Assembly: GCA_947179485.1 (NCBI GenBank)
Contig: OX359246.1
Span: 10,540,001-10,604,000, forward strand
DNA from: Allacma fusca
Taxonomy: Eukaryota; Arthropoda; Collembola; Symphypleona; Sminthuridae
Length of the DNA stretch: 64,000 nt
Reading direction: 5' to 3'
In this document: piece by piece, positions 2,639 to 57,122 of the stretch
Layout: every line of letters starts with the position of its first letter
Position numbering within the stretch: the stretch's first letter is position 1
Notes under the pieces: model-generated
Databases searched by the model: none
Seen by the model: only the letters and a program-made list of their open reading frames with translations
Told to the model about the DNA's origin: nothing
Made by a program: the position numbers and the translations under genes

Positions 2639-4368
2639 CAGTGCTCGGACTGGGTACAGAAACCGTGTACCCGTACCCATACCCGTACCCGAATATCGGG
2701 TACTACAAAATGTTGTACCTATACCCGTACCCATACCCGAGTACCCGGGTAAATTATTTCAGTACCCGTATCCGTACCTGAATATACAATGTAGTACCTG
2801 TACCCACAATTTACCCGTACCCGTAATGTACCCAAAACCTGTACCCGTACCCGAGTATTTATTGTGTGTACCCGGGTATTACTCGGGTACTGGAAGTTTG
2901 GCCGATTTAAAATCCCCGACGACATTAGCCTGCCCAGCTGAAAAATTTTAAGTTGTCAATTTTTTGACCTCCATTAAAAGTGTCCGGGATTTTGGGAATT
3001 TTCCCTAGGCGTTAAAGACATCCTATTTGAATTTTTTGAAAAAATTATTTAAGGCATTTTGGGATTTTTTTAATAAACACTGACGAAATTCAAATCCTAC
3101 TACCCCAAAATAATAACTTGCTGAATGAAATGAAATGTGTTCTCGCTAATTGGAATTGGGACGGATTCTTTAATACTAAACTCTCCATAACTTGCTTTTC
3201 AACTTGGAGAACAAGAAACAATTTTTTTCCCGGCTAATCGTGTCTCTGTGTATAGAAAATGTTATACGGAAAAATTGAGTTGATCATAATTTTTCCAAGT
3301 CAAATATTGCGGTTTGAGGAAATAAATGTGGGAGGCAATATTGAATATTTAATTTATATTACAGCTTTATAAAACAAACATTCGTAAACTGTCTCTCACA
3401 TTTATGAAGCCCCAGACGCAGATTTTCGAAAAATGCAGGCAAAATAGGACTAAAATGCAACCCCATGGAAGTTTCGAACGCCAAGTTCAGATGTCTGTCA
3501 AGTTCTTTTAACATCAAAATTATCAAGATTAATCAAAGGGACTGAAATATAAATATTGCGTGCAAGGAATGATATTTTTCATTCTAAAATGTTATAAATA
3601 TTCACCTCAATAAATACTCAAAGTGTCATAAATACCCAGAATTGAAAATGCTCAAATTGCCTGCATAAAATGCCTTGGCGTTTTCAAATGGGCAACCCTG
3701 GGTACTTGTAACGTTAAGAAATGGATCTGCTAATAAATGTAATTATATTTATTCCGATCTTATCTCGTAATACGTCTTCAAATAATTGTAATGTTACGTT
3801 CCCAATGAAGCTAATTAAATTGAATCCCAAGAACCTCCTTCTTGAAATTCTTCGTTGATGAGCTTCACTATTTAAATCGATAAACAGATGATTTCACTGA
3901 CTCTACGCTCTATTTCTTTATTAGATTCTTTGGATGAATTATTAGAAGCGTTAGATTGCAACTACCACGTAATCATAAATGAGACGAAGCCACTTGGCTC
4001 TGTCACTAACGCAAGTATCTGTATACTACGAAATAAGCAACTCCACGGTTGGTAGGTCTTATTGTTACCCATAGTACATAATCCATCCCATCAGGAACCC
4101 TTGAAGTACCCAAAAATACTCGGGTACAGCACCCACGGGTACAGGCATTTTACATAGTGATACCCGTACCCATTGGGTACTACCCGATTGCCACTGAGTG
4201 AGTACCCATACCCGTACCCGTACCTGTACCCACTTTATTGCCTAAAATCAAGAGTACCTGGGTAGTACCCGCGTACTTGCGAGTACGCAACTTATGTACC
4301 CGGGTAGTACCCATACCTGTACCCGTACCCATTTACCCGAGTATTACCCGTACCCAGTCCGAGCACTG
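2639..4368. mobile_element. hAT-like non-autonomous element, GGGTAC/GTACCC arms, TSD CCTCCTCT
   Basis: A 1,730-bp element with terminal inverted repeats CAGTGCTCGGACTGGGTAC on the left and the reverse complement (GTACCCAGTCCGAGCACTG) on the right. It is flanked by a perfect 8-bp target duplication, CCTCCTCT (2631-2638 and 4369-4376). Both arms (2650-2890 and 4080-4350) are dense in GTACCCG repeats. The core is AT-rich with no transposase. An 8-bp TSD and a CAGTG terminus fit the hAT superfamily. The duplicated flank at about 9078-9090 (TTGAATTATCTCC) is an empty-site relative. A second copy in reverse orientation lies at 15780-17438. Reading frames across the arms (VPIPVP-type low complexity) are translations of the repeat, not genes. 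Confidence 0.9.
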
Positions 4369-4376
4369 CCTCCTCT

Positions 4377-5690
4377 CTTGAAGTATGTATACCTCCATGT
4401 TCTTTTTCTGGAAAGAGGCAGTTTTGCTTTGAGTAAAACTCCCTCTAGACCCTGTTGCTTTAAATCGAAACTTATTTAGACCATGTGACCCCTTCACTAA
4501 TGACATATTAACAAGTTTTTCCTATCCCGTGAGAATGTACAATAAGCTCGAAAAAACTGTATAAATTAGCATTTCACGATGCTATGAATGTAGATATGTA
4601 ATTATATATACAATAATTAAATTAAATTTATAGGTGAAGCAAAAAAGGTGCAAGTATAATTTTTCCCTTTCAGATTTATTATTGAGTTAATATCTACATG
4701 CATATGAACGAAGTATCTACATATAAATACAGTCTACTCCCGCTATAAGAGACTCCCGGAACATTTCCTCGATGGAGACAAAATAATTTTTAAATATTCT
4801 CGTACTTACCACATTATAACGACATTTTCTTATGGAATATAAAAATTCTTTTTATTCATGGCTTGATCATTTTCTTATTTTAACTGCCAAATGACGCAAC
4901 ATTGGATGTATTTTTCACCGAGTGTTGTCAACCAATATACCATGTTCAATAAGAAATATGGAAGGTGGGTTGAATTTTTTAAAATTTATCAAAAATTGGT
5001 AGGAAGACAAAAAGGAAGGGTTATGAGTATATAGTATTCGGATGTATTAAAGGATTGCCCCTGGAAGTTCATTTCATTTGGACCTCTCTGTTCTGCCGAT
5101 AAAATACTTCTTTAAGGGGGTCACCCACATATAACGAGAGTGTAGACCCCTGGAATAAAAAAACAGACAGGGTAAAACATTTGCACCAATTATTCCTGAT
5201 GTAACAACATTATTATTAGATAACTATTTCTATGTATGTGTATAGTGTCATGTGGTGATACTGCGAGAAGTTTTTACAATTTGCACTTGAACGATAATTA
5301 ATTACTGCATCCACGCGCTGCATTTTCTCAGTGAAGGAAAACCTGTTTATAATGCCCTTGGTGAGCAGACAAAATGAAACTAGATGTGTTATACATTAAA
5401 AGGAAAATCCTCTGCATCCAGAAAAGCCCATCAAGTACCAGTTCATGCAAGTACAGGATTGTGGATTATTTAAAAATACATGCATTTATGCAACACTTTC
5501 CATTCGATTGAAAATGCAGCTTTATACCATTTTGACTCACTACTGACGATGTGCACGGATTGTAAATTACCTCACAAATGATTTGCTATATATACAAAAT
5601 GAAAATATCTTATATATGGCAGTCTGTTTCATTCATTCTATCTCTGGCATCTTCAGTTACCTTTGAATCCTCATTGGTTCATATTGTGCA
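4377..5690. other. Duplicated 5' region of CRAL-TRIO copy 2 with pogo-like remnant
   Basis: Collinear with 9086-10760 upstream of copy 3. It contains a degraded pogo/Tigger-like remnant from about 4730 (ACAGTCTACTCCCGCTATAA) to about 5146 (an inverted match at GAGAGTGTAGAC). The 60 bases before the start codon (about 5633-5693) are conserved in copies 2, 3 and 4, including CATTCTATCTCTGGC and CTTTGAATCCTC, so they are probably the promoter and 5' UTR. TATA-like runs lie at 5586 and 5611. Confidence 0.6.
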
Positions 5691-5693
5691 AAG

Positions 5694-6996
5694 ATGTTGA
5701 GCCTAATCGTAAGTTATATTTGCTTTGGCTTATTTGTCCTGGAAGTACTTTGCCACCCGGAAAATCAAATTGCTGCAAACGCTTCGACGCCCAATAATCA
5801 GGTCAAATTATTATAATTTTTACTACTACTTCGCAACTATATTCAAATCATTTGAAATCAAAGCATATTTTTTATTTTTGAACTAAAATTGTAGGAACAA
5901 AACTTTGACTTAGACAATTGGATAGCTTCCAAGAGCTTACGTACAAAGTGTCCATACTATATCAGTGGCTTTGATAACGAGAAAAGACCAAGTGAGATAA
6001 GACATAGTCACACACTATATATTGTAGATATTTCGATTTTGAATAATTACAAATAATTGGAGAAATTCTCAAAAATAATTACCACATCAAAATAAATTCC
6101 CCAGTATTTGTAATCGAGCTGGGGAAATGGCCAATAAGGGCTATTGTGGAAGCAGGTGGAGAGGAACTCCAGGAATTACATAAATACGTCCAGCAGATGT
6201 TCCATCGGGTTGATATTGGATCCAAAGCATTTTTAAATGCTAGCGAAATTGGTGCAGATGATGGCGTCTTGATAATGGACTGGGATCAGTTTAGTCTGAA
6301 ACAATTCATCCATGGACCAAGTAACAATTATATAGAAACAAATCTCCTGAAATATAATATTATTATAAATCAATGCTTCTTGTAAATGTTATTGTGAGTT
6401 GATGTTCAGATGTGATATTGGGAACACCATTTAAATTTAAAGAGGAAACCTTGTCACGGGTATCGTATCAAGTGTCATTTCATATCGATATCCTTTTTGT
6501 TTTTTTTACTCCAGCCACTAAATTTATCCTAAATCATTTTGCGGTCTTCCAAACACTCCAGAACAAAATGGCCTACGGGTTCTTTATTAATGGTAAATTT
6601 TTAATTATTGTTATCCAATGTAAAATATCTCTCATGGAAACTGTAATCTCTAAAATGCTTATAAGAGTGACTATAGACTTGTAATTAGTCAGTTTTCTTT
6701 TTTCTTTGACGGATTTTGTTTTCACGTGATTTATTTTGTCTCATGCTTCAAAAAGCGCGTGTAGTAATGAATTTTTGACTTTTGGAATTTCTAAATGTTT
6801 AGCAAACGCCGTGGCTTCCCAGTTGCTCAATCTGGCCCGTCCAATTATCGGAAGCATAATGGAACGAATTGAGATATACGGAACTCAAAAGGATCAATGG
6901 ATACCGAAACTCCTTCGGAAAATACCTAGAGACCAGTTGCCAGCCCGGTATGGTGGGAATAAGGAGGATTTCAAGCCTGTGGCGATTTATGGTTAA
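5694..6996 (+). CDS. Secreted CRAL-TRIO (SEC14-like) protein, copy 2, five exons
   Basis: Exons: 5694-5801, 5895-5991, 6105-6320, 6515-6592, 6803-6996. The lengths sum to 693 nt (230 aa plus stop) with intron phases 0,1,1,1. Exon 1 is a signal peptide (MLSLIVSYICFGLFVLEVLC). Exon 2 carries YYISGFDNEKRP, the strand that opens CRAL-TRIO domains. Exon 3 begins IFVIELGKWP and ends MDWDQFSLKQFIHGP. Exon 4 has FAVFQTLQ and YGFFIN. Exon 5 ends RDQLPARYGG. CRAL-TRIO domains bind small hydrophobic ligands (retinoids, tocopherol, phosphoinositides) and are usually cytosolic. Here the domain makes up nearly the whole mature protein, with no CRAL-TRIO-N or GOLD domain, and an N-terminal signal suggests secretion. 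All frames are open, so the copy looks functional. The ligand is unknown. The exon 1 donor is GTCAAA, weaker than in copy 3. Confidence 0.85.
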
Positions 6997-7486
6997 GAAG
7001 GGCAGCATTTTTGAAAAATATGAATCAGGCGGGCCTGGATTTTTGATCTCCAGTTATTCAAAAACCTGAGGCTAAGTAACAAGATGGCGACTAGATTTTG
7101 TCCCAACTGCGACCAGAGCTGCAATTTTCCTATTACACTCGGAAAACAATATGTAATTATGCATTATCCATTGACGAACCCGATGGTTTGTTACTTCTTT
7201 ATGCGCGTCCTCTATCATCAATGTTAACATTTCTTGAATGAACCGCCTCGAGCGGAACATGTCCAATTTGCAGGCGGAACACCAAAGCAGATGAAAATTG
7301 CTGCACAAGCATTTTTTGAGGCGTTGATTTTGGTTGTGTAAAGTTCCTTTAGTTTTACCAATTTATAACTGAAAAATAAATCTATCTCGTTGCTTCTAAT
7401 TTGCTCATATTTTAAAGTTTGTGACACCTGAGTTACAATTCCCGAGACATGGGCATACACATTTTTTTCGACGTAATTTCGCGTAC
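6997..7486. other. Duplicated 3' flank of CRAL-TRIO copy 2
   Basis: Similar to 1101-1640. Compared with copies 3 and 4 it lacks the roughly 250-bp block after the stop that contains the GTAGTAGCGGAAAAATAAAG poly(A) signal. The next AATAAA is near 7375. No gene was seen. Confidence 0.65.
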
Positions 7487-7494
7487 CTGTAAAC

Positions 7495-8712
7495 CAGAGC
7501 TGCGTTCAAGTCAAGTTATTTTAGACAACTTGACTTGAACTTGACTTGAACTTGAAAAAATTGTCTAAGCGAGGTATCCTCACTTGTATACTTGGTGAAT
7601 CAAGTTTCTCAAGCAACTTGAGTATTCAAGTACTCGATTTTCAAGTTCATTTTATTGAACTTGAACTTGATCATAACTTGACGTTCAAGTAAGGCACATA
7701 ACTTGACTTGAACGGAACCTTGAACTTGATTATTCAAGTAATTTTTTCGTAAATGAATAACCAATACTAAAAATTTCGTCCAGAACTATTATAGCTAATA
7801 ATGGCTAGGTCGTGATTAGGATAAACTAAACGGCTGATATTCTTTACTTTAAAATTGCTAAAAAATTGAAAATACTTGACCAAATAACTGTAAACATTGT
7901 AGTCCAATCTAATTTACTAATTTGCACTATTAAGAGTTTAGAAATCACATTACTGGCCTGTTGACATTAGTGTTGCACTCATCTGGTGAGTGTAACCAGC
8001 AGTTATATTCTTAAATATTTGGCGTCGTTAACTTTTTTTAACCAATGTAGATTTATAAGATTGTTGGTTGTTCGTCTGCGCCATTGTGTTTAATATCAGC
8101 AAAAATTATTTTTACATGAAATAATAAATTATTCTTACACTTCTTCTTAGCTTCAGGACAGGTGGAGTGAACAATCACTTCATTTTTATAATGGAACAAG
8201 AACTCCGAGTATCAAGAACATCTTTATAAAACAATAGGACGGAAATTTTAATTATTCAAAATTCAAAGTATGGAAACAGGACACAAGAATAATTATTCTC
8301 GACCACTGGCCATCGCGGAGGCGACTTCAATGTCGATGGAATGAAAACAAATACAAAGATGACATTATTATGATGATTGACGCCCAATAATATTTTTAGT
8401 GGAATTTAATAATGCCACTAATTAGGCATTGCTTTTACATTGCTTTTCAGTGATAAAAACTCAAGTTATACTCAAATTGTTTTCAAGTACTTCCATTCAC
8501 TGCACTTGAACTTGACTTGATTTTACAATCAAGTAATAAATTATTAACTTGAACTTGATCGAACTTGAACTTGAAAATTCAAGTTAAAATTATAATTTCA
8601 CTTGAACGTGTTGTTCAAGTTTTAAGTTACAAAATTGTCTGCACTTGACTTGACTTGAACTTGATACGCACTTGAACTATTCAAGTTATACTTGAACTTG
8701 AACGCAGCTCTG
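7495..8712. mobile_element. hAT-like foldback element with CAAGTT/AACTTG arms
   Basis: About 1.2 kb bounded by inverted repeats CAGAGCTGCGTTCAAGT (left) and ACTTGAACGCAGCTCTG (right). Both arms (7500-7740 and 8460-8705) are almost entirely built of CAAGTT, ACTTGA and TTGAACTTGA. The AT-rich core has no ORF of note. The flanks are CTGTAAAC on the left and CAGTGTAAAC on the right. The 8-bp target duplication is therefore imperfect (CTGTAAAC versus GTGTAAAC, offset by two bases), which suggests age or a small end rearrangement. Confidence 0.75.
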
Positions 8713-10764: not shown

Positions 10765-12083
10765 ATGTTTAACCTAATCGTAAGTTACATTTTTTACCTT
10801 GGTTTATTTGGGCTGGAAGTACTTTGCCACCCCGAAAATCCAACTACTGTAGATGCTGTGACGCTCAATAATCAGGTAAAATTATTATAATTTTTACCAC
10901 TACTTCGTAACTATATGTAAATCATTTGAAATCAAACCATTTTTCTTAATTTTTGAATTAAAATTGTAGGAACGAAACTTTGGCCTAAAAAATTGGATAG
11001 CTTCCAACAGCTTACGTACAAAGTGCCCATACTATATCAGTGGTTTTGACCACGAGAAGAGACCAAGTGAGATAACGCATATATTCACACGCTATTAATA
11101 TGATATTTGGAACTTGAATAATAATAATTTGGACCAATTCTCAAAAGTAATAATTACCGTGTCAAAATAAATTCCCAGTATTTGTAATCGAGCTGGGGAA
11201 ATGGCCAATAAGGGCCATTGTGGAAGCAGGTGGAGAGGAACTCCAGGAATTACATAAATACGTCAAGCAGATGTTCCACCGGGTTGAGATTGGATCCAAA
11301 GCATTTTTAAATGCGAGCGAAATTGGTGCAGATGATGGGGTCTTGATAATGGACTGGGATCAGTTTAGTCTGAAACAATTCATCCATGGACCAAGTAGCA
11401 ATTATAAAGAAACTATTCTCCTCGTATATAACTATCTATACATAGTCAATGCATGTAAATGTTATTGTGATTTGATGTTACTAGCCTTTCAGATGTGATA
11501 TTGGGAACACCATTAAAGACGAAACCATGTCACGGGTATCGTATCAAGTGTCATTTAATATCGATATCTTTTTTGTTTTTTTTACTCCAGCCACTAAATT
11601 TATCCTAAAGCATTTTGCGCTCTTCCAAACACTCCAGGACAAAATGGCCTACGGGTTCTTTGTTAATGGTAATTTTTGTCATTACCATCCACTGTAAAAT
11701 ATCTCGCCTTGAAACTGTAATCTCTAAAATTTTTATAAGAGGACTATATATAGTGACTACAGATATGTAAATAGTCCAGCTACCTTTCATTTTTTCACGG
11801 ATTTTGTTTTCTCATGATTTATTTTGTCTCATGTTACAAACGGAACGTGTAGTAATCAATTTTTTCTTATGGAATATCTAAATGTTTAGTGAACGCCGTG
11901 GCTTCCCAGATGCTCAATCTGGCCCGTCCAATTATCGGAAGCATAATGGAAAGAGTTGAGATATACGGAACTCAAAAGGATCAGTGGATACCGAAACTCC
12001 TCCGGAAAATACCTAGAGACCAGTTACCAGCCTGGTATGGTGGGAATAAGGAGGATTTCAAGCCTGTGGCTATTTATGGCTAG
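10765..12083 (+). CDS. Secreted CRAL-TRIO (SEC14-like) protein, copy 3, five exons
   Basis: Exons: 10765-10875, 10970-11066, 11179-11394, 11591-11668, 11890-12083. The total is 696 nt (231 aa plus stop), with the same phases (0,1,1,1) as copy 2. The signal peptide reads MFNLIVSYIFYLGLFGLEVL. Exon 2 has YYISGFDHEKRP, exon 3 has MDWDQFSLKQFIHGP, and exon 5 starts with a VNAVAS join and ends RDQLPAWYGG. The exon 1 donor is a clean GTAAAA. The only differences from copy 2 are substitutions and one extra codon in the signal peptide. A poly(A) signal AATAAA at 12325-12330 lies 242 bp after the stop. I infer a secreted carrier of a hydrophobic ligand. The exact ligand cannot be read from sequence. 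Confidence 0.87.
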
Positions 12084-13898: not shown

Positions 13899-14135
13899 TT
13901 ACTTTTCCGTCGTGGGACCGGGAACACAAACTTTGTGGAACGGGGTCGGGCCCAGAAAATTTACAATTTCTGGGTTCGGGAACAGGAACGGGTCCATGCC
14001 CGTATTTGTATTAAGTTCATGGGAACGGGTACCTAAAATACTGTTCCCACCATGACGGGAACGGGTCCGGGTACAGGAACACTTAACGGGAATAACCATT
14101 GAGCGGGAACGGGTACAAAAGGTTTGTGTCAAATT
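13899..14135. repeat. GGGAACGGG-motif repeat arm
   Basis: Many copies of GGGAACGGG, CGGGAAC and GGGTCCGGG within about 230 bp, with an internal inverted match (CGTCGTGGGACCGGGAAC near 13907 versus GTTCCCACCATGACGG near 14042). It resembles one motif-rich arm of the TIR elements seen elsewhere in the window. Ends and target duplication were not resolved. Confidence 0.5.
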
Positions 14136-15779: not shown

Positions 15780-17438
15780 CAGTGCTCGGACTGGGTACGG
15801 GTAATACTCGGGTAAATGGGTACGGGTACAGGTACGGGTACTACCCGGGAACAGAAATTGCGCACTCGCAAGTACGCAGGTACTACCTGGGTAGTCTGGA
15901 TTTTAGACAATAAAGTGGGTACAGGTACGGGTATGGGTACTCACTCAGTGGCAATCGGGTAGTACCGAATAGATACGGGTATCACTACATAAAATATCTG
16001 TAGATACCCGTGCATGCTGTACCCGAGTATTTGTGGGTACTTCAACTTTTTCTATTGAGATGGATTACTATGGCTAAGATATGTCAACCTTTGAGCTTTG
16101 GCCTTTAAATCTACTTTGCTTCTTTGTACATATACAGGTACTCGTATCATTGACAGAGCATCGGGAATTCGTTTCATTTCTGATTACGTGGTAGTTGTAT
16201 TCCAACGTTTGTAATGATTCATCTCGGGGATCTAATAAAGAAATATATATAACGTAGAGTCAGTCAGATTGCTTATTTATCTACTTGTAGAATGAAACTC
16301 ATTACAAAAGAATTTCAAGGAGCGGGTGTTGAGTTTAAATTTAATTACCTTCATTATCTGTAGAAGCCGAAAATTAAATTTACTTACATATATTACTTAA
16401 AGAATGAATATACGTTTGTCATTTTCTTGCCAGATCCGTTTATTATTGCTACAAGTATCCAGGGTCGGCAATTTGAAAATGTCAAGGCATTTTCAATCCA
16501 GGGCATTTATGACACTTTGAGCATTTAAGGCATTTATTTCAGTGGATATTTATGAAATCTTGGACAATATCATTCCTTGCAGACAATATTTGGATTCCAG
16601 TCCCTTTGATTATGGTTGATAATTTTGATGTTAATAACGGAGGCATCTGTGCTTGACTTTCAAAGCTCTCACGGAACTATACATTTGAGACTAATTTCAC
16701 CTGTCTTGGTTTAACATTGTCATTTCAGTCAACAAATAAAATATTCAATCTTGCCCCCTAATTTATTTTCTTAAACCACAATATTTCCTATGAATAAAGA
16801 TGTTGAACTCAAATTAATTCGTATAATATTTTGTGAACAGTATTTAAATATATTGTTTTATAAATACATCAGATCGTTGATTAAAAAATGGCAAGATCAG
16901 AAAATCCTACTTTCCTCCTTCTTCACTAACCTTGAGTGCTGTTTTTAGTAATACTCACAATTCTAAACGTCGAGAACTACACCGAAGCTCCCTAAAAAGT
17001 CTCTTATAAACTCCTACGGACTTGCGCTGAAAGATGTTTGAAAATATTTCTTTAGATTGCAACAAACATTTTTGATGTTTGCGAAGTTGAAAAGCAAGTT
17101 TCCGGTTATAAAGATTTTGGTATTAAAGAATAATTCGTTCCAATTGGTTATTCTTACGCTATACAAGAATTATTATTCTTGTATGGTGTAATTAATTAAA
17201 ATTTAATAGCTTATTTTTGCGAGAGCGCATTTCATTGCATTCACCTGGTTATTATTTTGGCGTACTAGCAATTGAATTTCTTCAGTGTTTATTAAAAATA
17301 AACCAGAAATGATTTGAAAAGGTTTTTTAATGCCTAGGGAAAATGAATAAAATCCCGGGAATTATCATTAATGAGCAAAAATGGACAAAATGACATTCGG
17401 GTACGGGTACACGGTTTCTGTACTCAGTCCGAGCACTG
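15780..17438. mobile_element. hAT-like non-autonomous element, GGGTAC arms, TSD GTTCTCAA
   Basis: A 1,659-bp element of the same family as 2639-4368 but in the opposite orientation. The left end is CAGTGCTCGGACTGGGTACG and the right end is CAGTCCGAGCACTG. A perfect 8-bp target duplication GTTCTCAA occupies 15772-15779 and 17439-17446. Internal segments (for example ACTCAGTGGCAATCGGGTAGTA) match the other copy in reverse complement. No transposase is encoded, so it must have moved in trans. Confidence 0.9.
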
Positions 17439-17548: not shown

Positions 17549-18880
17549 ATGTTGAGCCTAATCGTAAGTTACATTTGTCTTGGTTTAGTATTTGGGCTGG
17601 GAGTACTTTCCCACCCCGAAATACCAACAAGCCCCGACGCTGCGACCCCCAATAATCAGGTCAAATCAATTACATTTTTTCCTACTACTTCATAATTATG
17701 TAATTATGTATATCATCCGAAATCAAACCATTTGTATTGTTTTTGAATTAAAATTGTAGGAACAAAACATTGACCTGAACAATTGGCTAGCTTCCAAGAG
17801 CTTACGTACAAAGTGTCCATAAATGGCTTTGACAACGAGAAAAGACCAAGTTAGATAACTCAATCACACACTATTATAGATATTTCGAATTCGAATCATT
17901 ACTAATAATTGAATAAATTCTCAAAAAAGTAATTACCAAGCTAAACTATATTCCCCAGTATTTGTAGTGGAGATGGGAAAATGGCCAATAAGGGCCATTG
18001 TGGAAGCAGGTGAAGAGGAACTGGAGGAATTACATAAATATATAAATCAGATGTTCATCCGGTTTGAAATTGGATCTCGAGCGTTTTTAAATTCGAGCGA
18101 AATTGGTTCAGATGACGGTGTCATGATAATGGACTGGGATCAGTTTAACCTGATACAATTCATCCATGGGCCAAGTAGCAATTATATAGAAGCTATTCTT
18201 CTCATATATAACCATATATGTACATACGCTAATGCATGTAAATGTTATTATTGCGAGTTGATGTTACTAGCATTTCATATGTGATATTGGGATCACCATT
18301 TAAAGAGGAAACCATGTCACGGGTATCGTATCAAGTGTCATTTCATATCGATATCCTTTTTGTTTTTTTTTACTCCAGCCACTAAATTTATCCTAAATCA
18401 TTTTGCCCTCTTCCAAAAACTCCAGGACAAAATGGCCTACGGGTTCTTTGTTAATGGTAATTTTTGTCCTTACCATCCACTGTAAAATATCTCTCCTTGA
18501 AAATATAATCTCTAAAATGTTCATAAGAGTAGATATGTACTGTATAGTTACTATAGATATGCAAATAGTCGAACTAGCTTTCATTCTTTTACAGATTTTG
18601 TTTTTTTTTTATGATTTATTTTGTCACATGCTCCGAACAGCATGTCTAGTCATGAATTTATTCTGATGGAAAATCTGAATGTTTAGCCAACGCTGTGGCT
18701 TCCCAGTTGCTCAATCTGGCCCGTCCAATTATCGGAAGTATGATGGAGCGAGTTGAGATATACGGAACTCAAAAGGATCAATGGATACCGAAACTCCTCC
18801 GGAACATACCTAGAGACCAGTTGCCAGCCTGGTATGGTGGGAAAAAGGAAGATTTCAAGCCTGTGGCGATTTATGGCTAG
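17549..18880 (+). pseudogene. Secreted CRAL-TRIO copy 4, disrupted by a 7-nt deletion in exon 2
   Basis: Exons by homology: 17549-17659, about 17760-17849, 17959-18174, 18379-18456, 18687-18880. The signal peptide (MLSLIVSYICLGLVFGLGVL) and exons 3-5 are open and family-like: FVVEMGKWP, MDWDQFNLIQFIHGP, RDQLPAWYGG. In exon 2, copies 2 and 3 read CCATACTATATCAGTGG where this copy reads CCATAAATGG. The 7-nt loss removes the YYISG core and creates CCA-TAA, an in-frame stop after about 57 residues. The exon 2 donor is also altered (GTTAGA versus GTGAGA). A hAT-like element (19022-19892) sits between stop and poly(A) signal (AATAAA at 19961). A local assembly error is the alternative, but two changes in the same exon favour real decay. 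Confidence 0.85.
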
Positions 18881-40202: not shown

Positions 40203-40252
40203 AGCAACTTTACTTCATTCCGCGTAAAACATGGTTTAAATTTTAGTCAATA

Positions 40253-42237
40253 ATGAGTCTAACAATTAGTGATCGTTCAAAACGTCGCAAGACAGCTGAA
40301 TTAGTGGTTCAATTATTAGGAAGTATTAGAGAACACGGGCTTGAAAATATAAGTGCTGCGGTAACTCCAGATACAGAGCAAGTAATAAATTTAGATAACC
40401 TCAACGTCAACTACCATGTAAATAAAATATCAGATAGTGACCATGTTTCTGAAGAAATTAGTTCTTCGGATTCAGATACCCAGGATTTAGAGGTCGAAGA
40501 AGATTTACCATTGAATGTGAAACTTGCTCAATGGTGTACAAACTTTCAAGTATCTCATATTGCTGTCGATTCGTTGTTGAAAATTATAACTAAGCATGTA
40601 AATGATCCGCTTCCTCTTTGTACGAGAACACTTCTTTCAACGCCAAGAGTCATATGTATAAACAAATTAGGAGATGGCGATTTTTACTATTTTGGCATTG
40701 AGCCCAGCTTAAGATCCAAAATTAATGCAGGAATTGTACCCAATCATTTACCAATTTACTCCTCAGAATGTGAATCAAACTTAATAACAATGACGGTTAG
40801 TTGCGACGGGCTACCAATTGCAAAAGGCAGTAAAGATCAACTTTGGCCATTGATGGGTGTAGTGAATCAGTCTGTGTGTCGGAAACCATTTGTAATTGCA
40901 TTGTACAGTGGCAAATCAAAGCCCAAAGATTTGAATGCTTACTTAGAAAAATTTATTATTGAAACTAATATTCTGACAACATCAGGAATAGAAGTAAATG
41001 GAACCGTGTATACATTTAAAATCAGTCTCATTACAGCGGATGCTCCGGCGAGAAGTTTTTTGAAATGTGTAAAACCTCACAATGCCTACTTTTCTTGTGA
41101 CAAGTGTGAGCAAGAGGGTACCTGGTTTGAGCGACGCGTTGTATTTCCAGAATTTAATTCTCCACTAAGATCAGATAGTAGTTTTAGATTACAGAGTCAG
41201 GAAGAGCATCATGTTGGCATATCTCCATTGATAAATATTTCACTTGGAATGGTCAGTCAATTTGTATTGGATTATATGCATTTAGTATGTTTAGGCGTCA
41301 TGAGAAAAATGTTAAATTGCTGGATAAAGGGTTCTCTAAAAGTTAGGTTGCGGGCTAGAGACGTCGAAATTATTTCTGCGAGATTAAAATTACTACAAGC
41401 GCTGGTTCCGAATGAATTTGCAAGGAAGCCTCGTGCTCTAAGTGAAGTTGATAGATTTAAGGCTACGGAATTCAGATCATTCTTACTTTTTTACGGCATT
41501 GTTGTTCTTAAAGACGTTCTACCAGCTAACCTGTACAAACATTACCTGTTATTTCAAGCTGCGATTTTCATGCTTGTTAGCTCTCGTGCTCATGAACCCC
41601 CCGTGAATACTACTGCTAAAAATTTACTTGTAGAGTTTGTTAAGCAAGCTGCACCTCTATACGGCACAGAGTTTTTGGTGTACAATGTACACTGTTTGTT
41701 GCATCTTGCAGATGATGCTCTTAAATTCTCAAGCCTAGATAATTTTAGTTGTTTTAGTTTTGAAAATCACATGCAAAGTTTTAAAAAATGATCAAATCTA
41801 AACGAAATTATTTGCAGCAAGTTGTGAATAGAATTTCTGAGCAAAATTTATATGAGGAGACACATCTGATGAAAAAGCAAGGGTTTGTTAACTATTCTAA
41901 TAAAAAAAAGTTTTTTTACAATGGTACTCTTATATCTACAAATGACTCAGATTCGTGTTTTCTAACGAGGTCTCTGCAAGTTGTTAGAGTAATATCTTTA
42001 GACAATATAAGTGAAGGAACATTAGTATGTAAGCACTTTAGCTGTTTATCGTTAGTACCAGATTATCCTATTAATAGTAAATTGTTATGTATTTACCTAT
42101 GTTCTGGCTTGTCTGAAGTTAGTAGTATTTCTGTGAAAGATTTGAAGGAAAAATGTGTTTTATTTCCTAGCTTTAGTAATACTGGTAAATTTATAAGTGT
42201 ACCTCTGAATCAGAGCATTATTCATAGTAATTTGTAA
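40253..42237 (+). pseudogene. Tnp2-like DNA transposase (EnSpm/CACTA-related), one frameshift
   Basis: Two frames, 40253-41791 (512 aa) and 41788-42237, together form one transposase of about 660 aa interrupted by a one-base shift at the A-run near 41785. Landmarks are LWPLMGVVNQ and GKSKPKDLNAYLEKFI, then ITADAPARSF (likely first catalytic Asp). A zinc-knuckle-like YFSCDKCEQEGTW follows, then VLDYMHLVCLGVMRKML, KATEFRSFLLFYG, YNVHCLLHLADD, and FSFENHMQSFKK at the shift. The second frame continues YLQQVVNRISEQ, as expected for the family. An acidic serine-rich N-terminus precedes the domain. The start is 50 bp after the stop of the DUF4806-type gene, and an ATTTTAG acceptor-like site lies 6 bp before the ATG. 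Decay, a homopolymer error or slippage could each explain the shift. Confidence 0.8.
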
Positions 42238-43170: not shown

Positions 43171-43294
43171 ATCTTACAACGCTGGAAATTAACAGTAATG
43201 TTGTTATACTTTTGTAGGGTCATTTGCTGGAAATTAAAGTTACTCAGTCGCTGAAGGACACATGAAAAATTAATTACTAAATAGAGCTTCCAAT

Positions 43295-43455
43295 GTGGTC
43301 AACATTTTTGTTCCGTGGGAAATTCCGCTCCGTTCCGAAACCTACAAGTATTATTTTTCCCTGTTCCGTTCCGATTTAATCTTTTTTTGTAAAATCTTGT
43401 TCACGGTGGAAAATGTTCCGCTTCCCAACACAGAACTTTGGGATTTCGGAAACCC
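43295..43455. repeat. TTCCG-motif patch
   Basis: Iterated GTTCCG, TTCCGCT and CCGTTCCG, with an inverted GGAAAATGTTCCG-type match, in about 130 bp. It resembles a short motif-rich arm. Ends not resolved. Confidence 0.4.
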
Positions 43456-43940
43456 CCCGTGCGAAAAAGGTACTATAGATTCCTATAATTTTAAACTATA
43501 GGAAAATGGTATAGGAATTGCAGACGTTTAACTAAGGACATTTCCTATACTCAGGACTATGGATTCCTATAGCCGAGGTTTAGGAAATCTATAGGTATTC
43601 CTATCTACATCTATGTAATGAGTATGCTATTTTTATGTATTCTTTAAATTTGCAGTCATGGTTCATCAAGTAAAAATAAATGAAATCTAAAATTTTTGAT
43701 ACCAAAATAATGAAATTTATTTTTTAGTAGATGAACTTCAATCACTGACAAAAATAATTAATTTGTTAAACTTTGAATATTCTTGAACCGCTTTCTGGCG
43801 TCAGTGCAAATATTTGAAATGCTTCTCTGGAACTGCATCATTTTAGTCGTATTTCCATTGATCTTGCACTTGCGGATGTTGTATTCTGTAAAAATATTAA
43901 AATTACAAATTACATCACCGAGTTAATCAATGAATACCTG

Positions 43941-45453
43941 CAGGCACTCCGGAATAAGGGGGGACAGGAGGGTCATTGTCCCTCCCAAAAAACATCAGGG
44001 AGGGACATGCTATACTACTGTCCCCCCCACTTTTCAAGAATCAAATAAGACTTTTTCTGACTTTTTGCTGTCAAGACTGCAATAAAGCTTCAATTTTTTA
44101 AAAATCCTGCACAAATTGCTATTAGTTCTAAAAACATGAAAGAATTTATTTCTTCTAAACAAAAGTCTTAACATCGTGTTGCCAAATATCTTTTTCATCC
44201 TGGTGTATTCTTACTTGTGGAGATAGGTACATCTAGGTAATTACCAAAATTAAGTAGTCAAATCGATAATGTTTTGCTATTGTTGACATTTTTAAATTTG
44301 GAATATTGTTTCCCACTACCTGTGTCGAACAATTTGATCTCGCCTTACCAGATAGATTCAGACCAGGGGTGAGTATCTCGTTGGTTTTCAAATTCTCGTT
44401 TCTGAAAAAAATACGAGAACGAGATATATTGAGAACGAGAGTTGCGAGAGTAAGCAACGCACGAGACAAACGAGACAGGGCAAAAAAATGGTTTTTGTGT
44501 TGGAATACATGCAATTTAATTGTAGCCTGCACAAATTCTGGTGAGAGAACTACAAATTTATTTATTTTCACTAATCGGGACAATCCCAAGGCGTAAAGAA
44601 CGAGATAAACGAGATTCTCGTCTCCTTGTCTCGTTATACTCACCACTTGTTCAGACCAAAACCTTTTTTTGGATCAAAATTTTGAACAATTTGAAACTTT
44701 CGCTTTGAACTTTGTTCCAAATTCATGTCAGACCAATTCCAAAATGTCGGACCAGACAGTTAATACCATTTCTGTATTAGGAGAATAACGAACATTTTGG
44801 TCGGAGCAAATTATAAACTCGATAGGTTTTTGCGCGCTGATACTATTGCAAAGAATGCAACAGAGTATTGATATATCCATCAAAGGAGTTTATTTCAGGT
44901 TATTAATAATTACCATTAAATATACGTTGTTGGTAGAAACATTTCCTTCAAAGAGTTCATCGTCTCAAAATTTGGTCCATTTGGTCTGGTCCAACGGACG
45001 GACCAGGCCATGTACTTCTAAACAAGTAAATCTATCGGCGAAAGTTCCTTGAACCAAGATTGTGCAACAGATCTTGCCTGGAGCTGACCAGACCAAAAAT
45101 CAAAGAACAGATCGAACCATTTCAGTAGCTAGTTAGCAATCATTGCAATGAATGTATGATACCTCTAAATATTTGAAATCCATAAATTTTTACTAGTGTC
45201 TAATGTTTGTAAGAAACAGTTCCTAATATATGAGATTTGTGTTTTGTAAAAGTTCGTTCTTTTAAAACTGATTTAAAAAAAATAGAAGATCTATATTTTT
45301 ATTTGCACGTTAATATGATTAGCTAGCGAAAAATTATGTTACCATATATGTACATACATACATACATACGTTTGTATACAGTCGCTAGCAAATAAATTAA
45401 ACTAATTAAAAAATATTGTCCCCCCCACTTTGTCGGACGTTCCGGAGTGCCTG
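43941..45453. mobile_element. hAT-like element with GGGAGGGAC arms, TSD AATACCTG
   Basis: 1,513 bp with inverted ends CAGGCACTCCGGAA...TTCCGGAGTGCCTG and a perfect 8-bp target duplication AATACCTG (43933-43940 and 45454-45461). The arms carry GTCCCTCC/GGGAGGGAC and runs of C or G. The interior has TTTGGTCYGACC-type repeats (44650-45120). No transposase. It is nested in the Tnp2-like element and contains the smaller element 44365-44649. The family's second copy is at 52910-57114, in reverse. Confidence 0.9.
44365..44649. mobile_element. hAT-like MITE with ACGAGA/TCTCGT motif, TSD TTCAGACC
   Basis: 285 bp flanked by a perfect 8-bp duplication TTCAGACC (44357-44364 and 44650-44657). The ends are imperfect inverted repeats around GGGTGAGTAT and ATACTCACC. 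The body is rich in ACGAGA, GAGACAAACGAGA and TCTCGTCTC. It is the innermost of three nested elements. Confidence 0.8.
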
Positions 45454-46870: not shown

Positions 46871-48938
46871 ATGGGAAAAGGAAATATTTCCAGGTTTAAA
46901 TGGAATGCCAACAATCCACGTCAAACACGATGGAGTCGAAAGAAAAGAGTAAATATAATTGGAAATGCAGACATAAAAATGTGCAAAACAAGTTTAAAAC
47001 AGTAGAATGACCCAAACGATATTTTTATATACTGTTACTTATTCATTATTTGTTAACATTCCAGAAAATCAAGAATGCATCCCAAATTGCTACTCCAGTC
47101 CGAATAAACTCATTTGACCTTCTGGATGACGATTCGGATGGTGTATCAATCACTGGTAAACATCCGTTGTATTTTTAATATCTAAATGCATAACAACAAT
47201 ATTTCAAGTAATTGTTACATAATAAAAATAAATTTCCGCCGACACAAAGATTATACCATGATTAATTTAGAATCTCGTTTTGTTGAAAACGATTGTTGCT
47301 TTTGTTTTTAGGTGATGTGCCGGGTAAGCTGGAATGGGATGTTTTAAGTGTGTCTAGTGTAGGGAGCCGTGACAATTTGGTTCTGTCAGATTCCGATGAA
47401 TATTGCGAAATCTCAAGTGACGAAAATTTTGATTTTGTTGAACAGATAAATGATTTTAGTAACTGGTGTTAACAATTCAAGATGATATGTATATATTTAA
47501 AATTATAATGTATACTCTACATACTATCCGATGTTATTTGAATACCAGGTTCTTCACGCGGACACACAATTAAGTTTAGCAGAAAGTTTACACCTAGTGC
47601 TAGCATTTTCTAGAAGGGCAAACTTGTCCAAGAAACTTACAGAAGACTCACTCAAATTAATTAAACTTCATCTGCCCAAAAGTGTGACATATACGGTTAC
47701 ATATTTTAGATTCGAAAAAGACCTGGGAATATCACACATCAAATGTGAGAACTTAGCGTACTGTGAAAATCAACATGTAATTACGAATGGACGCTGCAAT
47801 GAATGTGACGAAGCTTTTGATGAAAATATGTTAATTAAGCAAGGAAAATACTTTTTTATTTATGATGTGAGATCAACAAAAACATTAAGAACCATCTTAC
47901 TACCAGTATTCTTAACAGAGAGAGAATGGCAAAATCAGAAATCGTAAATACTTACGGCAGCAAGTATTGCGAGACTGTATTAAATTGGAACATATCGGCA
48001 ACATTCAATACGGACGGAGTACCCGTGTTCAAATCTTCAAAGCTATCGATTTGGCCCTGCTTACTTGCACTGGATGAATTGCCTTATGGAATTAGAAAAC
48101 GCAACATAATATTATCGGCATTGTGGAGCGGATCGTCAAAGATTAATTCAAAATTGGTTTTTTCTAAACTTGTCCCAGTGTTGAATAAGTTGTATGAAGA
48201 TGGAATAATTTGGGAGAATTCACTAGGATATTTATGCAACAACAACGTATTGATTCAACAATGCAGTGTGGACGCCGTTGCAAGGTGTATAATACAGGGT
48301 TTAACTCAATTTAATGGCGCCTATGGATGCAGCCACTGTAAAGAACAAGGAACAGTTGTACCCAAGGGAAGAGGAAGGTGCCGTGTCTTTCAAAATATTG
48401 ACAACTTGGAATTAAGGACTGAAGCTGAGCACCGTAGTTTAATTGAGAGTTCGGATTATAAATACGGTTCCACAATTTGTTTCGACTATGTTTTATATTA
48501 AACAGCCGTATAAGATTTTTAATTGTAATGACGTCATTTTGGAAAAATGTGCTGAGTTTGCGAATGTGCTTTGTATTTTTTCATCCAAGTCAGCTATTAT
48601 TAATGGTCATTTGTTTAAGCAAAGGGAAACGGAAAAACGTGCAGATTGCTACATTAAAATCAGTGATTTCGAAATTGGAACTGTAAAAAACTTTCTACAC
48701 ATTGAATGTTGTTGTGAGTTGGCCTGCAACTGCAGAAAAGATTTGGTAATAGTTGAAGTTTTTAAGGTATCCAAACTAGGATTCTCAGAATTTGCTTTCC
48801 AATGTAGTTTATCAGTGCGAAAACAAGTGAAAGTCATGGATATCAAAAATCTTAGCTGTGACAAGTTTTTTATAATGAAATATAATGATACACTATTTTT
48901 CCTTCATGTTTGTAACCTTTTCGAAATTGATGAAATCT
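46871..48938 (+). pseudogene. Second Tnp2-like transposase, frameshifted and internally deleted
   Basis: Possible 5' exons: 46871-46948, 47065-47155 and 47312-about 47465. The main body follows at about 47550-48490, and the 3' part at about 48490-48938. Recognisable blocks are ESLHLVLAFSRRANLSKKLT, a YCENQHVITNGRCNECD zinc-ribbon-like segment, then after a one-base shift near 47930 FNTDGVPVFKSSKLSIWPCL and KRNIILSALWSGSSK. Finally GAYGCSHCKEQG. After KYGST (about 48475) the expected LDYMH catalytic core is absent. The frame changes and only a C-terminal cysteine-containing segment (CCCELACNCRKDL) remains, so the catalytic domain is deleted. This belongs to a different Tnp2-like lineage from 40253-42237. 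It cannot be active, and the intron join before 47550 is unresolved. Confidence 0.7.
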
Positions 48939-52901: not shown

Positions 52902-53907
52902 ATCTGTAACAGGCACTCCGGAACGTCCAAAAAAGTGGGGGGGACAGCCTTTTAAAATTAATTTTCGCTACTTTGCTATTGGCCAAATACAAACGTATGT
53001 ATGTACATAAGTATAGGGTTACACATTGTTTTTCGTTAGTTAGCTCATATAGCATGCAAAATATAGAACTTTTAATTTTTGTTCCATTTTTTTAAAGAAC
53101 AAGTTTTCATAGAAGACACCAACTAAATCTCATATATTAGAAACATTTTCTTACAAACACTAAATACTATCAAAATTTTACTGATTTCAAATAGAGGTAT
53201 CAAAGAATCATTGAACTGCTTGGCGATATGTTTCCGGGATTGGTTCAATCTGTTCTTTCATTTTTGGTCTGACATGGTCCAAGTGTAGAACCATGAACCA
53301 TTCCTCTAGATCTGTTCCACAATTTTCTCCAGTAGATTTACTGCTTTAGCCGTGCATGGCCTTTTCCATCCGTTGGAATAGACCAAATTTTGTGTCGGTG
53401 AATTTTTTGATGTAAATGTTTCACTAAACAACAATATTTCATGTTAATTATTATTATCCTGAAATAATCTCCTTGGGTGTTGTTTTAATACTCGGTTGTA
53501 CTCTTTTCAATAATATTGGTTTTCTAAAACCTATTGAGTTTATAAATTGCTCCTAGCAAATTTTCCGTTAAGCTCGTAATACAGGAATGGTATTACCTGC
53601 CTGGGCCCTATTTCATAAACATTACAATCCGACAATTACAAGTGAAAAGTGACAAATTGCCAATTGTCAATTGAAATATGATTTCATAAACAGCCGTGTG
53701 ACAATGACCAGTGACAGGAAAAATCGACTGACAATGACAGGAAATTGTAAAGGATTTACATTTATTACGTTTCATATACCAGTGTATTTACAAGTGACTT
53801 ACAATTGTCGCTCAAATGTGACAGTACTCCAGACCACTGTCAACTTGTAAAACGGAGTAAAATAAATTATAACCATAGTGATTAGATAGATTTCATGAAG
53901 TTAACCA

Positions 53908-55222
53908 TGAATTTGTTACTTGATACAAGTAGTGAAAGTGACGAAAATGAACGAATTATTCTTGAAAGAGCGGAGGAAATTTAAACCCCGAATCAATTTC
54001 GAAATTCCGAATTCATTCGACTTCAATGAACAATTCAGAATTTCCAAATGTGCATTTGAATATATTCTGGGTAAAATTGGTGGACAACTTTTGCTTAAAA
54101 CGTCTCGCAATTTCGCCTTAACACCCGATCAACAGCTCTTGACTGCAATGGCATGGTTTGGAAACGGGTCACAGTACCATGGGATTGGACGCCAGCTTGG
54201 TGTATCAAAATCCACAGTACACAGGTTATATAATTCAACTGTCAATTTGGAAATTTAATATTTATTGTCTAAACTTATTCCAACATTATTTTTTATTTTT
54301 TTAAATGTAAATCTGTGTCATTAATAATAGCGTTCATTCAATGTGCATTAATTTCAAATGTGATATTATCAGGTGCATCAAAAGTGTCTGTAAAGCGGTC
54401 ATAGAGACTCTGTTGGCAGATGAAGTTCGCTGGCCTTCGGAAAATAGTTTGGAAATTCCTATTAAGTTTATGCAGTTATCCCGACAAGGATTTCCGTGTG
54501 TAGCTGGATGTGTTGACGGAACGCTTATTAATGTTGATGCTCCCACTGTTCATGAAGAGTCATGTGGTCAGATACGGAAATCATTCTATTAATGCACTGA
54601 TGGTTTGTGGTCCGGACAGGAGAATCTATTACATTACTGCACGATGGCCGGGATCTGTACACGATGCGAGAATTTTGAGAAATAGCAGTTTGTCAAACAC
54701 TTGGGAAGCAGGGTGGAGACCCTTTAGTAACGCCGTAATTTTAGGAGACAATGCTTTTGGATTGAGAAATTGGCTCATTCCCCCAGTAATTCACGGTCCA
54801 GTTACTCCAAGTGGATTGCGATTCCTTAGAGCCCATCGATCAACCCGTAGAATTATTGAAAACTGCTACGGAGTTCTCAAAGAGAAGTTTCCTTGCCTTA
54901 ACCATCTCCGTCTGCGACCAGATATTGCTGGAAAAGTAATCTTAACTTTAGCCTGCGTTTTCAACATTGAAATAGGAATAAATGGAATACAGTGTGATAC
55001 AGATTGGGATTTGGGTAAGATAATTCGTTTAATCGATTTGTTCGTAAAATATATACCAACAATGTAAGAATCTGCTAACAATTATTACCAGAATAAAAAT
55101 CATTGGTTCTTTGTGAATACATATATTTAGAATTTAACATTGTGGATGAGGATCCAACAGGTGTGGAAGACGCAGATCCGGCCGCCCTGGAGAATCTCCA
55201 TCGCATCATCTCACTTTTTTGA
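53908..55222 (+). pseudogene. PIF/Harbinger DDE transposase (HARBI1-like), frameshifted
   Basis: Exons: 53908 (or 53947)-54224, 54373-55014, 55131-55222. The N-terminal helix-turn-helix part reads FNEQFRISKCAFEYIL, then LTPDQQLLTAMAWFGNGSQY and GVSKSTVHR. The catalytic part has CVDGT (first Asp), GSVHDARIL (second Asp) and ENCYGVLKEKF (Glu), the DDE_Tnp_4 signature. Two frame problems appear. If translation starts at 53908 (MNLLLDTSSESDENE), a one-base shift near 53975 is needed, although a start at 53947 avoids it. In exon 2 a one-base shift near 54563 separates DAPTVHEES from VRYGNHSINAL. The last exon adds EFNIVDEDPTGVEDADP. All catalytic residues persist, so loss of function is probably recent. 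Confidence 0.85.
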
Positions 55223-55480
55223 TCATTCCAAGTTCACTTCGGTTTCTGGCACAACGGTAATAAGCTCAACAACTAGAGCTGTAAAAATAATATATGGTTT
55301 GTACACAGTACATAACGCAAGAAATATTTATTTTATTTTTATTTATATGCATTTGAAAATTTTTCAACATTGTAGTACTTTATGAATAAGAACTTACGCT
55401 GAAAATAAAATTTCTGAATAAATTCTGAAGGCCCCATTCCAAGTTCTTTTTCTAACTTCAGTATTTGCAAATCCCTGATT

Positions 55481-56143
55481 CTATTTTCTCTTGATTAGTT
55501 CCACTTGCGCCTCAAACTTTTGTGTTCTGATCCTCTGTAATTCATCTAGTTTAGCAGCTTGACCAATCTTCGGCCCTGGTTTTTGACTCTTATAAGCCGG
55601 TTCTTCTAGTTCCTTGTCAGGCTCCGAATTTTCCTTATCGGTTTCATCACCCGGCAGAGCTAAGGTTGCTTCGGAGGTACCCGAAGACTCCGGCAAGTTT
55701 ATTCCGCCCAAAACGGGAGAGTCGATGCCAATGATATCGAATACTATGAGATCTGCTTCATCAAATTTGCAATTTTCCCCTCCACTGGCTCCAGTTTTCT
55801 TTTGATTAGCACGCTTGGCCTGAATTAAAAACAATGCTGTTTCAAACTATTACATCCCGTTTTACTAAATATTATGGACAATCATTTCAAATTTGATTTT
55901 TAAACAGTAATTTGATGTCATACCATCGTTCGCTTTCTCCAATTTTGCCATGTGGTATCCCCAAGATATTTAGCATCTTGCCCGGGTTTTAAAAAACCAA
56001 TGGATCTAGCCTTTTCAGCAACTTCGGTCCAAGCTGCAATTTTTTCTTCGTTTGTCAATTTGTCGCTTACTTTTGCAAACAGAACATTCTTGGCCTCCTT
56101 AATAAACGTGAGCACACTAATTTGCTCTTTCGTTTAGACATAG
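55481..56143 (-). pseudogene. Myb/SANT-like DNA-binding companion of the Harbinger transposase
   Basis: Minus strand. An N-terminal MSKRKSK start at 56143 is out of frame with the following VLTFIKEAKNVLFAKVSDKL, so a one-base shift lies near 56120. The domain continues NEEKIAAWTEVAEKARSIGF then WQNWRKRTM, the tryptophan-spaced Myb/SANT-like pattern. A donor (ATG|GTATGA, near 55922) and an acceptor (ATTCAG|GCC, near 55822) join it to a second exon with an acidic Ser/Pro-rich linker (LALPGDETDKENSEPD) and a basic coiled-coil-like end (LDELQRIRTQKFEAQVELIK). Harbinger Myb-like proteins bring the transposase to the nucleus and the element ends. Its converging position supports this role. Confidence 0.75.
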
Positions 56144-57122
56144 TAGAGAAATTTACAAGTACAAAAATTATAAAGATTTTACATGGGCTAAAATTTGGGC
56201 AATTCGAGGAAAATCTGCGGCTTGTGAAAACTGAGTCCTCAAATTGACAAACTTACTGTATGGTACTTCCCGCGTATTTTATATTTCTATACTCAATGAC
56301 AACTTGTAAATATGCGCCTGTCATAATGGCTGGTCTATGAATTGTTTGTGAAACGCCTGTACTTGTAAATTGTCAATTACACAATTGTACTTGTCAAATT
56401 GTCATTGTCGGGTTGTATGTTTTATGAAATAGGGACATATTGGAGCAGATTTATTGTTCTGGCATGAATTTGGAACGAAATTCAAAGCAAAAGTTTCAAA
56501 ATGTTCAAACTTTTGATCCAGGTCAAGATTTTGGCCTGAATTAATCTTGCAAGGGGAGGTCAATATTTTCGGCATACGGGCGGGAAATAATGTTCCAAAT
56601 TTAGCAATAGTAACGAATGTTGAATAGAAAAATATCTTCTAATTTTTTTATGGGCAGCGAATACCTTTACAATTTCAACCCTGAAAGTATTGCAATACTT
56701 GCATAAAATCGATTGAATAAGTTCAAAATCATTATCAAGGATGAAAACAGTAGCTTTAAAAAATCTAATTCGGACTGCAGTATAACCCACTACTTTCACT
56801 ACTCAATTTTGGTAGTTACCTAGATGAGCCGATCTTTACATGCATGCATGTACCAGGACGGAAAAGATATTTATCATTTAAGTAAACATTTTTGTTTAGA
56901 AGAGATTGTTTGTTGCGAGTTTTTTAAATGCAACTAACAGCAGTTTGTGGAGGATTTTTTAAAAAATGAAACTTCATAGGAGTTTTGACATCAAAAAGTT
57001 AAGAAAAGGTTAATTTGATTCTTAAAAATGGGGGGACAGCAGTATAGCCTGTCCCTCCTTGACTTTTTTGGGAGGGACAATGTCCCTCCTGTCCCCCTTA
57101 TTACGGAGTGCCTGATCTGTAC

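Follow-up and report, generated by a model that had tools for sequence, protein, structure and literature searches.

Arrays of family-specific short words in the arms of hAT-type transposons in the genome of Allacma fusca

A 64,000-bp stretch of the genome of the collembolan Allacma fusca (assembly GCA_947179485.1, contig OX359246.1, positions 10,540,001 to 10,604,000, G000:C8:10540001-10604000 in our numbering; hereafter the window) contains nine transposons of seven families, A to G, whose arms carry many copies of a short word that differs from family to family. The original prediction described them as unrelated elements with terminal inverted repeats (TIRs) that share one design. The words and their sites were as described, and all nine elements exceeded shuffled expectation; the elements are not unrelated, however, because families A to G all have hAT-type ends, with TIRs beginning CA or TA and target-site duplications (TSDs) of 8 bp. 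The usual hAT TIR is short and begins with C or T followed by A, with a G nearby. The TIRs of families A to G start with CAGTGCTCGG, CAGAGCTGCG, TAGGGTTTG, TAGTGGTCC, CAGGGGTCGG, CAGGCACTCC and CAGGGGTGAG, respectively, an indel separating the two ends of G. The TSD is perfect in six of the nine elements (A1, A2, C, D, E and F1) and shows one mismatch or a shift of 1–2 bp in the other three. Judged by their ends, families A to G are non-autonomous transposons of one superfamily, hAT.

The bounds and TSDs of these elements are given here as a corrected set. Genome-wide figures, for the 393-Mb assembly of 91 contigs, are mostly counts of exact terminal patterns, with the reversed pattern as control; the patterns range from 14 to 25 bp, so that families are not comparable with one another, and about 300 kb of genomic sequence in total was read letter by letter. 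A1 (2639–4368) has arms of GGGTAC/GTACCC, the TIR CAGTGCTCGGACTGGGTA and the TSD CCTCCTCT at 2631–2638 and 4369–4376. A2 (15780–17438) has the same TIR, one long arm similar to those of A1, one short arm and the TSD GTTCTCAA on both sides; exact 18-bp termini of family A number 946 in the genome (control, 0). B (7495–8712), with arms of ACTTGA/CAAGTT and the TIR CAGAGCTGCGTTCAAGT, is flanked by an imperfect TSD (CTGTAAAC versus GTGTAAAC, with a 2-bp offset) and is represented by 801 exact 17-bp termini (control, 0). C (19022–19892) combines arms of GGCA/AAATGCC with the TIR TAGGGTTTGTC, the TSD GTTATACT on both sides and 166 exact 25-bp termini (control, 0), and D (21166–22080) combines arms of GATTC/GAATTGAAT with the TIR TAGTGGTCCCRATC, the TSD CTTATACA on both sides and 338 exact 23-bp termini (control, 0). 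In the 391-bp element E (26671–27061; TIR CAGGGGTCGGATTTTTGTA, TSD GTATGGGG twice), the word AAATCCCTG occurs throughout, including the core; the family has 950 exact 19-bp termini (control, 0). F1 (43941–45453, TSD AATACCTG twice) has GGGAC words near its ends only, at 1.5 per 100 bp of arm, and holds the 286-bp element G (44364–44649), which has the word ACGAGA and a shifted TSD (ATTCAGAC/TTCAGACC, with TTCAGAC common to both). F2 (52910–57114) is split by a nested Harbinger-like element and its TSD copies, ATCTGTAA and ATCTGTAC, match at 7 of 8 bases. Although F is the least word-dense family, it has 597 exact 14-bp termini in the genome (control, 2).

Arms of 150 bp (or one third of the element, if shorter) were compared with 400 dinucleotide shuffles, for which the lowest attainable P is 0.0025. 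The commonest 6-mer was above shuffles in all nine window elements (P 0.0025–0.01), most strongly in B, with 23 copies in 2 × 150 bp against a shuffle maximum of 6, and clearly also in A1, with 15 copies against a maximum of 6. The results for C (9 copies, shuffle maximum 9), F1 (5, 5) and F2 (6, 6) were marginal, and with 200-bp arms and 300 shuffles C (11, maximum 12), F1 (6, 6, for a 6-mer other than the family word) and F2 (6, 7) were unsupported. The end of A1 was set 3 bp too long in both shuffle tests, with 200-bp and with 150-bp arms; the left end of B was 4 bp late and that of G 1 bp late in the 150-bp test, in the density and tandem measures, in the first arm-homology run and in the word-by-arm table. 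As a background from randomly sampled genome pieces, pairs of 150-bp windows gave at least 8 copies of a 6-mer in 0.9% and at least 12 in 0% of 4367 draws.

The words are also specific to their families. In a table of 19 words by 29 arms, some of them flanks of transposase genes whose ends were placed by eye, words of other families gave 143 matches against 164 expected in 522 cells, or 0.87 times background. The 29 cells in which a word meets its own arm gave 376 matches against 11.6 expected, a 32-fold excess that is inflated since the words were picked from the same arms; only the off-diagonal cells are unbiased. Density and tandem arrays were measured in 17 elements from the window and the sample described below. 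The density of core words in window arms ranges from 1.5 (F1) to 7.9 (A1 and B) per 100 bp, against 0.03–1.0 in the core where an element was large enough for it to be measured (seven window elements); the short cores of E and G are word-rich too, and the sample element S1 has 2.0 words per 100 bp of core. Word saturation is confirmed as real, mostly family-specific, present in both arms and, where an element is large enough to include a core, rare there. In F, however, saturation is weak, so that the original claim is overstated, and statistical support is marginal for C and F.

To see how far this pattern extends, twenty random 10-kb pieces of the genome were scanned by TSD and TIR alone, blind to words. 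The scan gave 11 calls, 8 of them with a perfect TSD; reversed sequence gave 7 calls, none with a perfect TSD. Of the eight perfect-TSD elements, a small number, seven have one 6-mer above shuffles (P 0.0025–0.005). These words are of the CGGGA type, GGGTAC (family A), ACGATA, GAGTAG, TTTAAACC/AAACC, CGGTTC and ACTTGA (a relative of B); the eighth element, of 137 bp, has no over-represented word. Three further calls with one TSD mismatch are probably due to chance, the reversed control having given seven such, and were set aside; two of them have no significant word and the third reached P 0.035. Patches outside the called elements were saturated with CTAGTC (positions 7076–7400 of piece L033 and 8851–9175 of L035) and with AGACTG (4651–4925 of L047), and are possibly single arms of further families; either the TSD and TIR scan misses some elements, or such patches have other sources. 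Recurrence of word-packed ends across this genome is confirmed.

Family D provides a closer view. Among the best-scoring 28 of 40 scored copies, the TSD is perfect in 25, and GAATTGA occurs 10–15 times per copy in the arms and never in the core in all 28, so that the suggested comparison of arms with core, and of other copies with the window element, came out in favour of enrichment in arms only. CGATTCA in D arms stands at 136–158 times background. The right arm of the window copy includes a 36-bp tandem unit (21953–22039) whose marker sequence occurs twice; two copies of this marker were found in 2 of the 28 D copies, the window's included, and one or none in the other 26. Between D lineages (two subfamilies and the coding element described next; one copy, L022, fell in neither group and was left out), 5 of 159 word sites differ versus 24 of 195 spacer sites (Fisher P 0.0016), or 4 of 145 versus 17 of 175 without CpG sites (P 0.013), and private mutations of single copies are somewhat fewer in words than in spacers. 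These comparisons suggest constraint on word sites.

The original prediction called for autonomous partners to be found. One match to the Pfam domain Dimer_Tnp_hAT lies 3 kb from one D terminus among the 100 listed; about 0.4 such neighbours are expected by chance (100 × 150 × 10 kb / 393 Mb), and proximity alone proves nothing. The match led to L055, an uninterrupted D-family element of 3477 bp with the TSD GTCGAGAC on both sides, the D TIR and the D word in both arms. A single gene is predicted in it, for a transposase, with four exons, GT-AG introns and no interruption; an antisense open reading frame (ORF) of 258 residues overlaps the gene. The predicted protein exceeds the Pfam cut-off for zf-BED (33.7 bits) and for Dimer_Tnp_hAT (59.3 bits) and matches the hAT RNase-H domain under its cut-off, and phmmer matches it to Hermes transposase structures (E 3.8e-7). 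By these predictions, D has a hAT coding member between the same ends. For family A the one 4.6-kb element tried as an autonomous partner, L076, is without an ORF over 100 residues.

Genes for hAT transposases are abundant in this genome: Dimer_Tnp_hAT scored above cut-off in all 150 scored matches of 860 candidates, and a zf-BED profile search of the genome gave 35 matches. From the 150 best-scoring matches we selected 26 further loci, six for long open frames and 20 for diversity. By eye, a word array adjoins the gene in the 3' flank of 15 of the 26 (4 of 6 and 11 of 20), with about 11 words, several array-positive loci being of one family (L049/L074, L052/L053 and L058/L075). A TSD-based search for the ends of the six loci gave best candidates with 4–5 mismatches, none convincing. 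The flank of L073 has a B-like end with the TIR CAGAGCTG and the word AAGTCA; a GTGGTA-rich stretch directly beside this end is perhaps the arm of another family. Just downstream of the transposase domain of L059 lie, by eye, about seven head-to-tail units of ~30 bp with GAAGGA, and the last 400 bases of L050 (gene strand), downstream of its hAT gene, are ACAACA-rich between CACCCACCCTG and its inverse.

Several of these loci allow words to be set beside proteins. L049 and L054 are 51% identical over 503 residues, and both have the word AACGG and the protein segment AGNLK(S/T)HLR; L052 and L055 are 32% identical over 323 residues and their words differ, and L053, a 92% relative of L052, is unlike L055 in the AGNLK(S/T)HLR segment. 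Of these proteins, L055 and L053 alone have a confirmed Pfam zf-BED domain; the piece of L049 that was scanned lacked its first exon. Ends starting with CATA(G/C)ATG occur with three words, GAGGG (L062), GAGTAG (sample element S4) and GAGTG (a single arm at 63538 of the window), which hints at concerted word change, and ACTTGA (B and its sample relative S7) versus AAGTCA (L073) is a candidate word-change pair. The coevolution of transposase and word proposed in the original prediction fits these few pairs and is plausible. That transposase and word change in concert in each hAT lineage, with the arrays of both ends converted as a whole to a new word, which would generate dozens of orthogonal systems that do not cross-mobilise one another, is a speculative extension that we would sooner doubt than accept.

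The arrangement resembles that of known hAT elements, as far as the available excerpts of the papers cited here describe them. Most hAT transposons are said there to have repeats of this sort near their TIRs (PMC10368747). Maize Ac has AAACGG repeats within 200 bp of its ends, which its transposase binds cooperatively (PMC3260210); like Ac/Ds, the elements described here have an 8-bp TSD, a short TIR, a subterminal region of word repeats (~200 bp in Ac) and many non-autonomous members (PMC3260210), and AAACGG resembles the AACGG word of L049, L054 and L074. Unlike Ac/Ds, most elements measured here have 4–8 core words per 100 bp, and about 20 words occur in one genome. Both ends of the mosquito element Herves carry CGATTCAT-type words to which its transposase binds (PMC3143072); the D word holds GATTC/ATTCA, the core of CGATTCAT, and D arms are full of CGATTCA/GATTC. 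The housefly element Hermes forms a multimeric transpososome in which the BED domain recognises subterminal repeats of AAGT (PMC10368747). AAGT is also part of the B word (31 copies in B, 8 times background), S7 arms are AAGT-rich too, and the predicted D transposase, as noted above, matches Hermes structures. The repetitive subterminal region of the fish element Tol2, which is likened to ours by description only, is essential for transposition (PMC3143072, PMC10368747), and BED-containing proteins derived from hAT elements reportedly show diverse sequence preferences (PMC8097297). The design itself is known from a few hAT elements; what is new here is its scale, about 20 words in one genome. 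As hAT transposons with subterminal repeats these elements are ordinary; how many words there are, and how densely they are packed, is remarkable. In the open-licence literature we found no survey that sets many hAT families of a single genome, each with its own word, side by side.

The two arms of an element were also compared with each other past the first 25 bp. In a test with 1000 shuffles on the corrected bounds, inverted homology was no better than in block-shuffled arms in all 17 elements, the lowest result being 185 of 1000 shuffles; in an earlier run with 200 shuffles S7 reached P 0.050. Direct orientation outscored inverted in 16 of the 17. Neighbouring words are inverted in 96 of 264 pairs. 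That the two arms carry one word, in either orientation and with no inverted homology beyond the TIR, fits one protein reading both ends.

Our preferred reading, to which we give a probability of roughly 78%, is that the arms are arrays of family-specific subterminal repeats that serve as putative sites for the BED zinc finger of the family's own transposase. It starts from direct observations: the hAT-type ends, the specificity of the words, the same arms on the transposase-encoding D relative and the result of the inverted-arm comparison. From these we infer BED binding, cooperativity and selection. Each short word would be recognised by the BED finger of the cognate hAT transposase, and several transposase protomers on the multi-site array at each end would mark the DNA as substrate. 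The bound arrays would bring the ends together into a transpososome, with the short TIR as the cleavage site. New sites would arise by local duplication and by duplication between arms, and well-read arrays would be the ones that get copied, leaving one word at both ends.

Several observations weigh against this reading and temper our confidence in it. A transposase is assigned to only one of the window families, D. The stretch read beside 11 of the 26 further transposase genes holds no clear array, and a strict count, which asks for at least 5 copies of a single 6-mer within 150 bp, passes 7 of 20 flanks; two of these passes are not arrays by eye (an A+T word at L065 and a long tandem repeat at L067), and six of the eleven eye-positive flanks fail. 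A McDonald-Kreitman-like comparison with the private mutations of D copies has the right direction but falls short of significance (odds ratio 0.41; P 0.15, or 0.19 without CpG sites), scrambled words equalled the real ones in roughly one trial in ten (14 of 149 and 17 of 140), and word and spacer divergence in A arms differ little (0.342 vs 0.356, in a set that includes the short A2 arm, and 0.129 vs 0.147). According to the excerpt of PMC10368747, Hermes sites beyond the first 50 bp are dispensable, whereas several families here are saturated over 150–200 bp, which exceeds the need of the Hermes model; the word matches to Herves and Hermes were, besides, noticed after the fact. Finally, arms are alike in direct orientation: none of 1000 shuffles reaches the score of E and 20 of 1000 that of D, and each of the 17 elements ranks within the top 35% of its own shuffles, in a test whose 12-bp block shuffle breaks longer repeats and favours finding direct likeness. 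Copying between arms could also spread a word, and our confidence is lowered on this account.

The best-surviving alternative is that mutational amplification alone, by slippage, repair duplication or copying between arms, expands any word, with no role in binding. Several traces speak for it: tandem arrays cover 12.4% of arm versus 1.8% of core in the 17 elements, neighbouring words on the same strand are often 5–6 bp apart, the 36-bp unit is doubled in two D copies, the ~30-bp unit of L059 recurs about seven times, and the halves of E share a direct repeat of ~80 bp, with weaker direct arm likeness in general. Yet about 88% of arm lies outside tandem arrays at the threshold used, more than a third of neighbouring words are inverted, the arrays are placed at element ends, the coding D relative included, and the D lineages differ less at word sites than in spacers. 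Amplification as the only cause therefore appears unlikely, and simple-sequence expansion as the whole story, which would have undone the original prediction, is rejected on the D-lineage divergence, the inverted neighbours and the low tandem coverage. Coevolution and slippage had been posed as alternatives; tandem duplication is visible, the two are not mutually exclusive, and duplication between arms could contribute to arrays that a transposase would read.

VANDAL elements belong to a different superfamily from hAT. A second alternative takes them as its model: the arrays would be read by a host factor or by an anti-silencing protein that the transposon encodes, as VANC reads VANDAL elements in Arabidopsis. 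In the excerpt available, the targets of VANC are short, family-specific words that have accumulated by tandem duplication and differ between related elements, the closest precedent that we found for such a spread of words, and, unlike the reader proposed here, VANC is an anti-silencing protein (PMC5735166). The single gene predicted in the 3477-bp coding D element is that of the transposase, which the antisense ORF overlaps, the arrays sit at the tips, and other hAT transposases bind such words, all of which makes this alternative improbable. Long, imperfect TIRs that have degenerated, with the common word as leftover inverted homology, are suggested by inverted matches that a repeat search found in the arms of several elements and are ruled out, for practical purposes, by the comparison in which inverted arms scored no better than block-shuffled ones in any of the 17 elements and direct orientation scored higher in 16.

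In the literature excerpts available, few hAT transposases (Ac, Tag1, Herves, Hermes and Tol2) have experimentally tested binding words. With about 20 words in one genome, several of them beside a transposase gene, the evolution of these enzymes and their putative sites could be put to the test, and a BED recognition code may be inferable by comparison; matched pairs of enzyme and ends would be supplied, and the set of words would show whether related transposons escape cross-mobilisation through word change. A short word saturating both arms could also serve as an annotation signature for hAT ends.

Word-rich arms in the window are not confined to hAT elements. Two further cases named in the original prediction, at 53606 and 60336, have arms that beat shuffles, each with 8 copies of the word in 2 × 150 bp (P 0.0025), and are not hAT. 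The first is the Harbinger-like element nested in F2 (53606–56434), with TGACAA as arm word, 67-bp inverted arms that are 73% complementary and an ORF on the forward strand (54504–55067) that matches DDE_Tnp_4 with 79.7 bits. The second (60336 to about 61066, the right end being approximate) has the arm word ACCACT, the left end TA-CAGTAAAACCTGTATATAG and the right end TATACAGGGTTAACG, and is presumably pogo-like by its TIR and TA target rule. Shortly before it, a 34-bp unit is repeated in tandem about 40 times with 95% matches (58698–60047), in the 2-kb bin of lowest G+C content in the window (0.263).

The single arm at 63538–63700, on the forward strand, has the word GAGTG, with the patch CACTCGCACTC at 63560, and begins with CATAGATGCACATTTT, the same 16 bases that by eye stand at the end beside the hAT gene of L062; sequence at 61713–62811 is related to the core of S4. 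At 43276–43650 a patch rich in TAGGAA/TATAGGAA in both orientations corresponds to an element predicted at 43456, for which the word-rich patch was recovered and TIR and TSD were not established. Another patch, of the word GCCCG, covers positions 1–720, and one of GGGAACGGG near 14020 resembles S1 by word only, with no BLAST match between them.

Rfam and tRNA scans of the window gave no match. Similar ORF pieces at 6047–6385, 11154–11498 and 17913–18284 (with FVIELGKWPIRAIVEAGGEELQELHKYV), about 5–7 kb apart, are probably exons of a tandem gene cluster; two of the three were tested against Pfam and had no match. An ORF on the forward strand at 47866–48501 has DUF1258 and Transposase_21 matches just under cut-off and perhaps represents another type of DNA transposon; the ORF at 40247–42237, also forward, is similar to it by eye, and its first part (40247–41791) has no Pfam match. 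On the reverse strand, a 747-residue open frame at 29381–31624 has a Lig_chan match below cut-off and probably encodes an ionotropic receptor.

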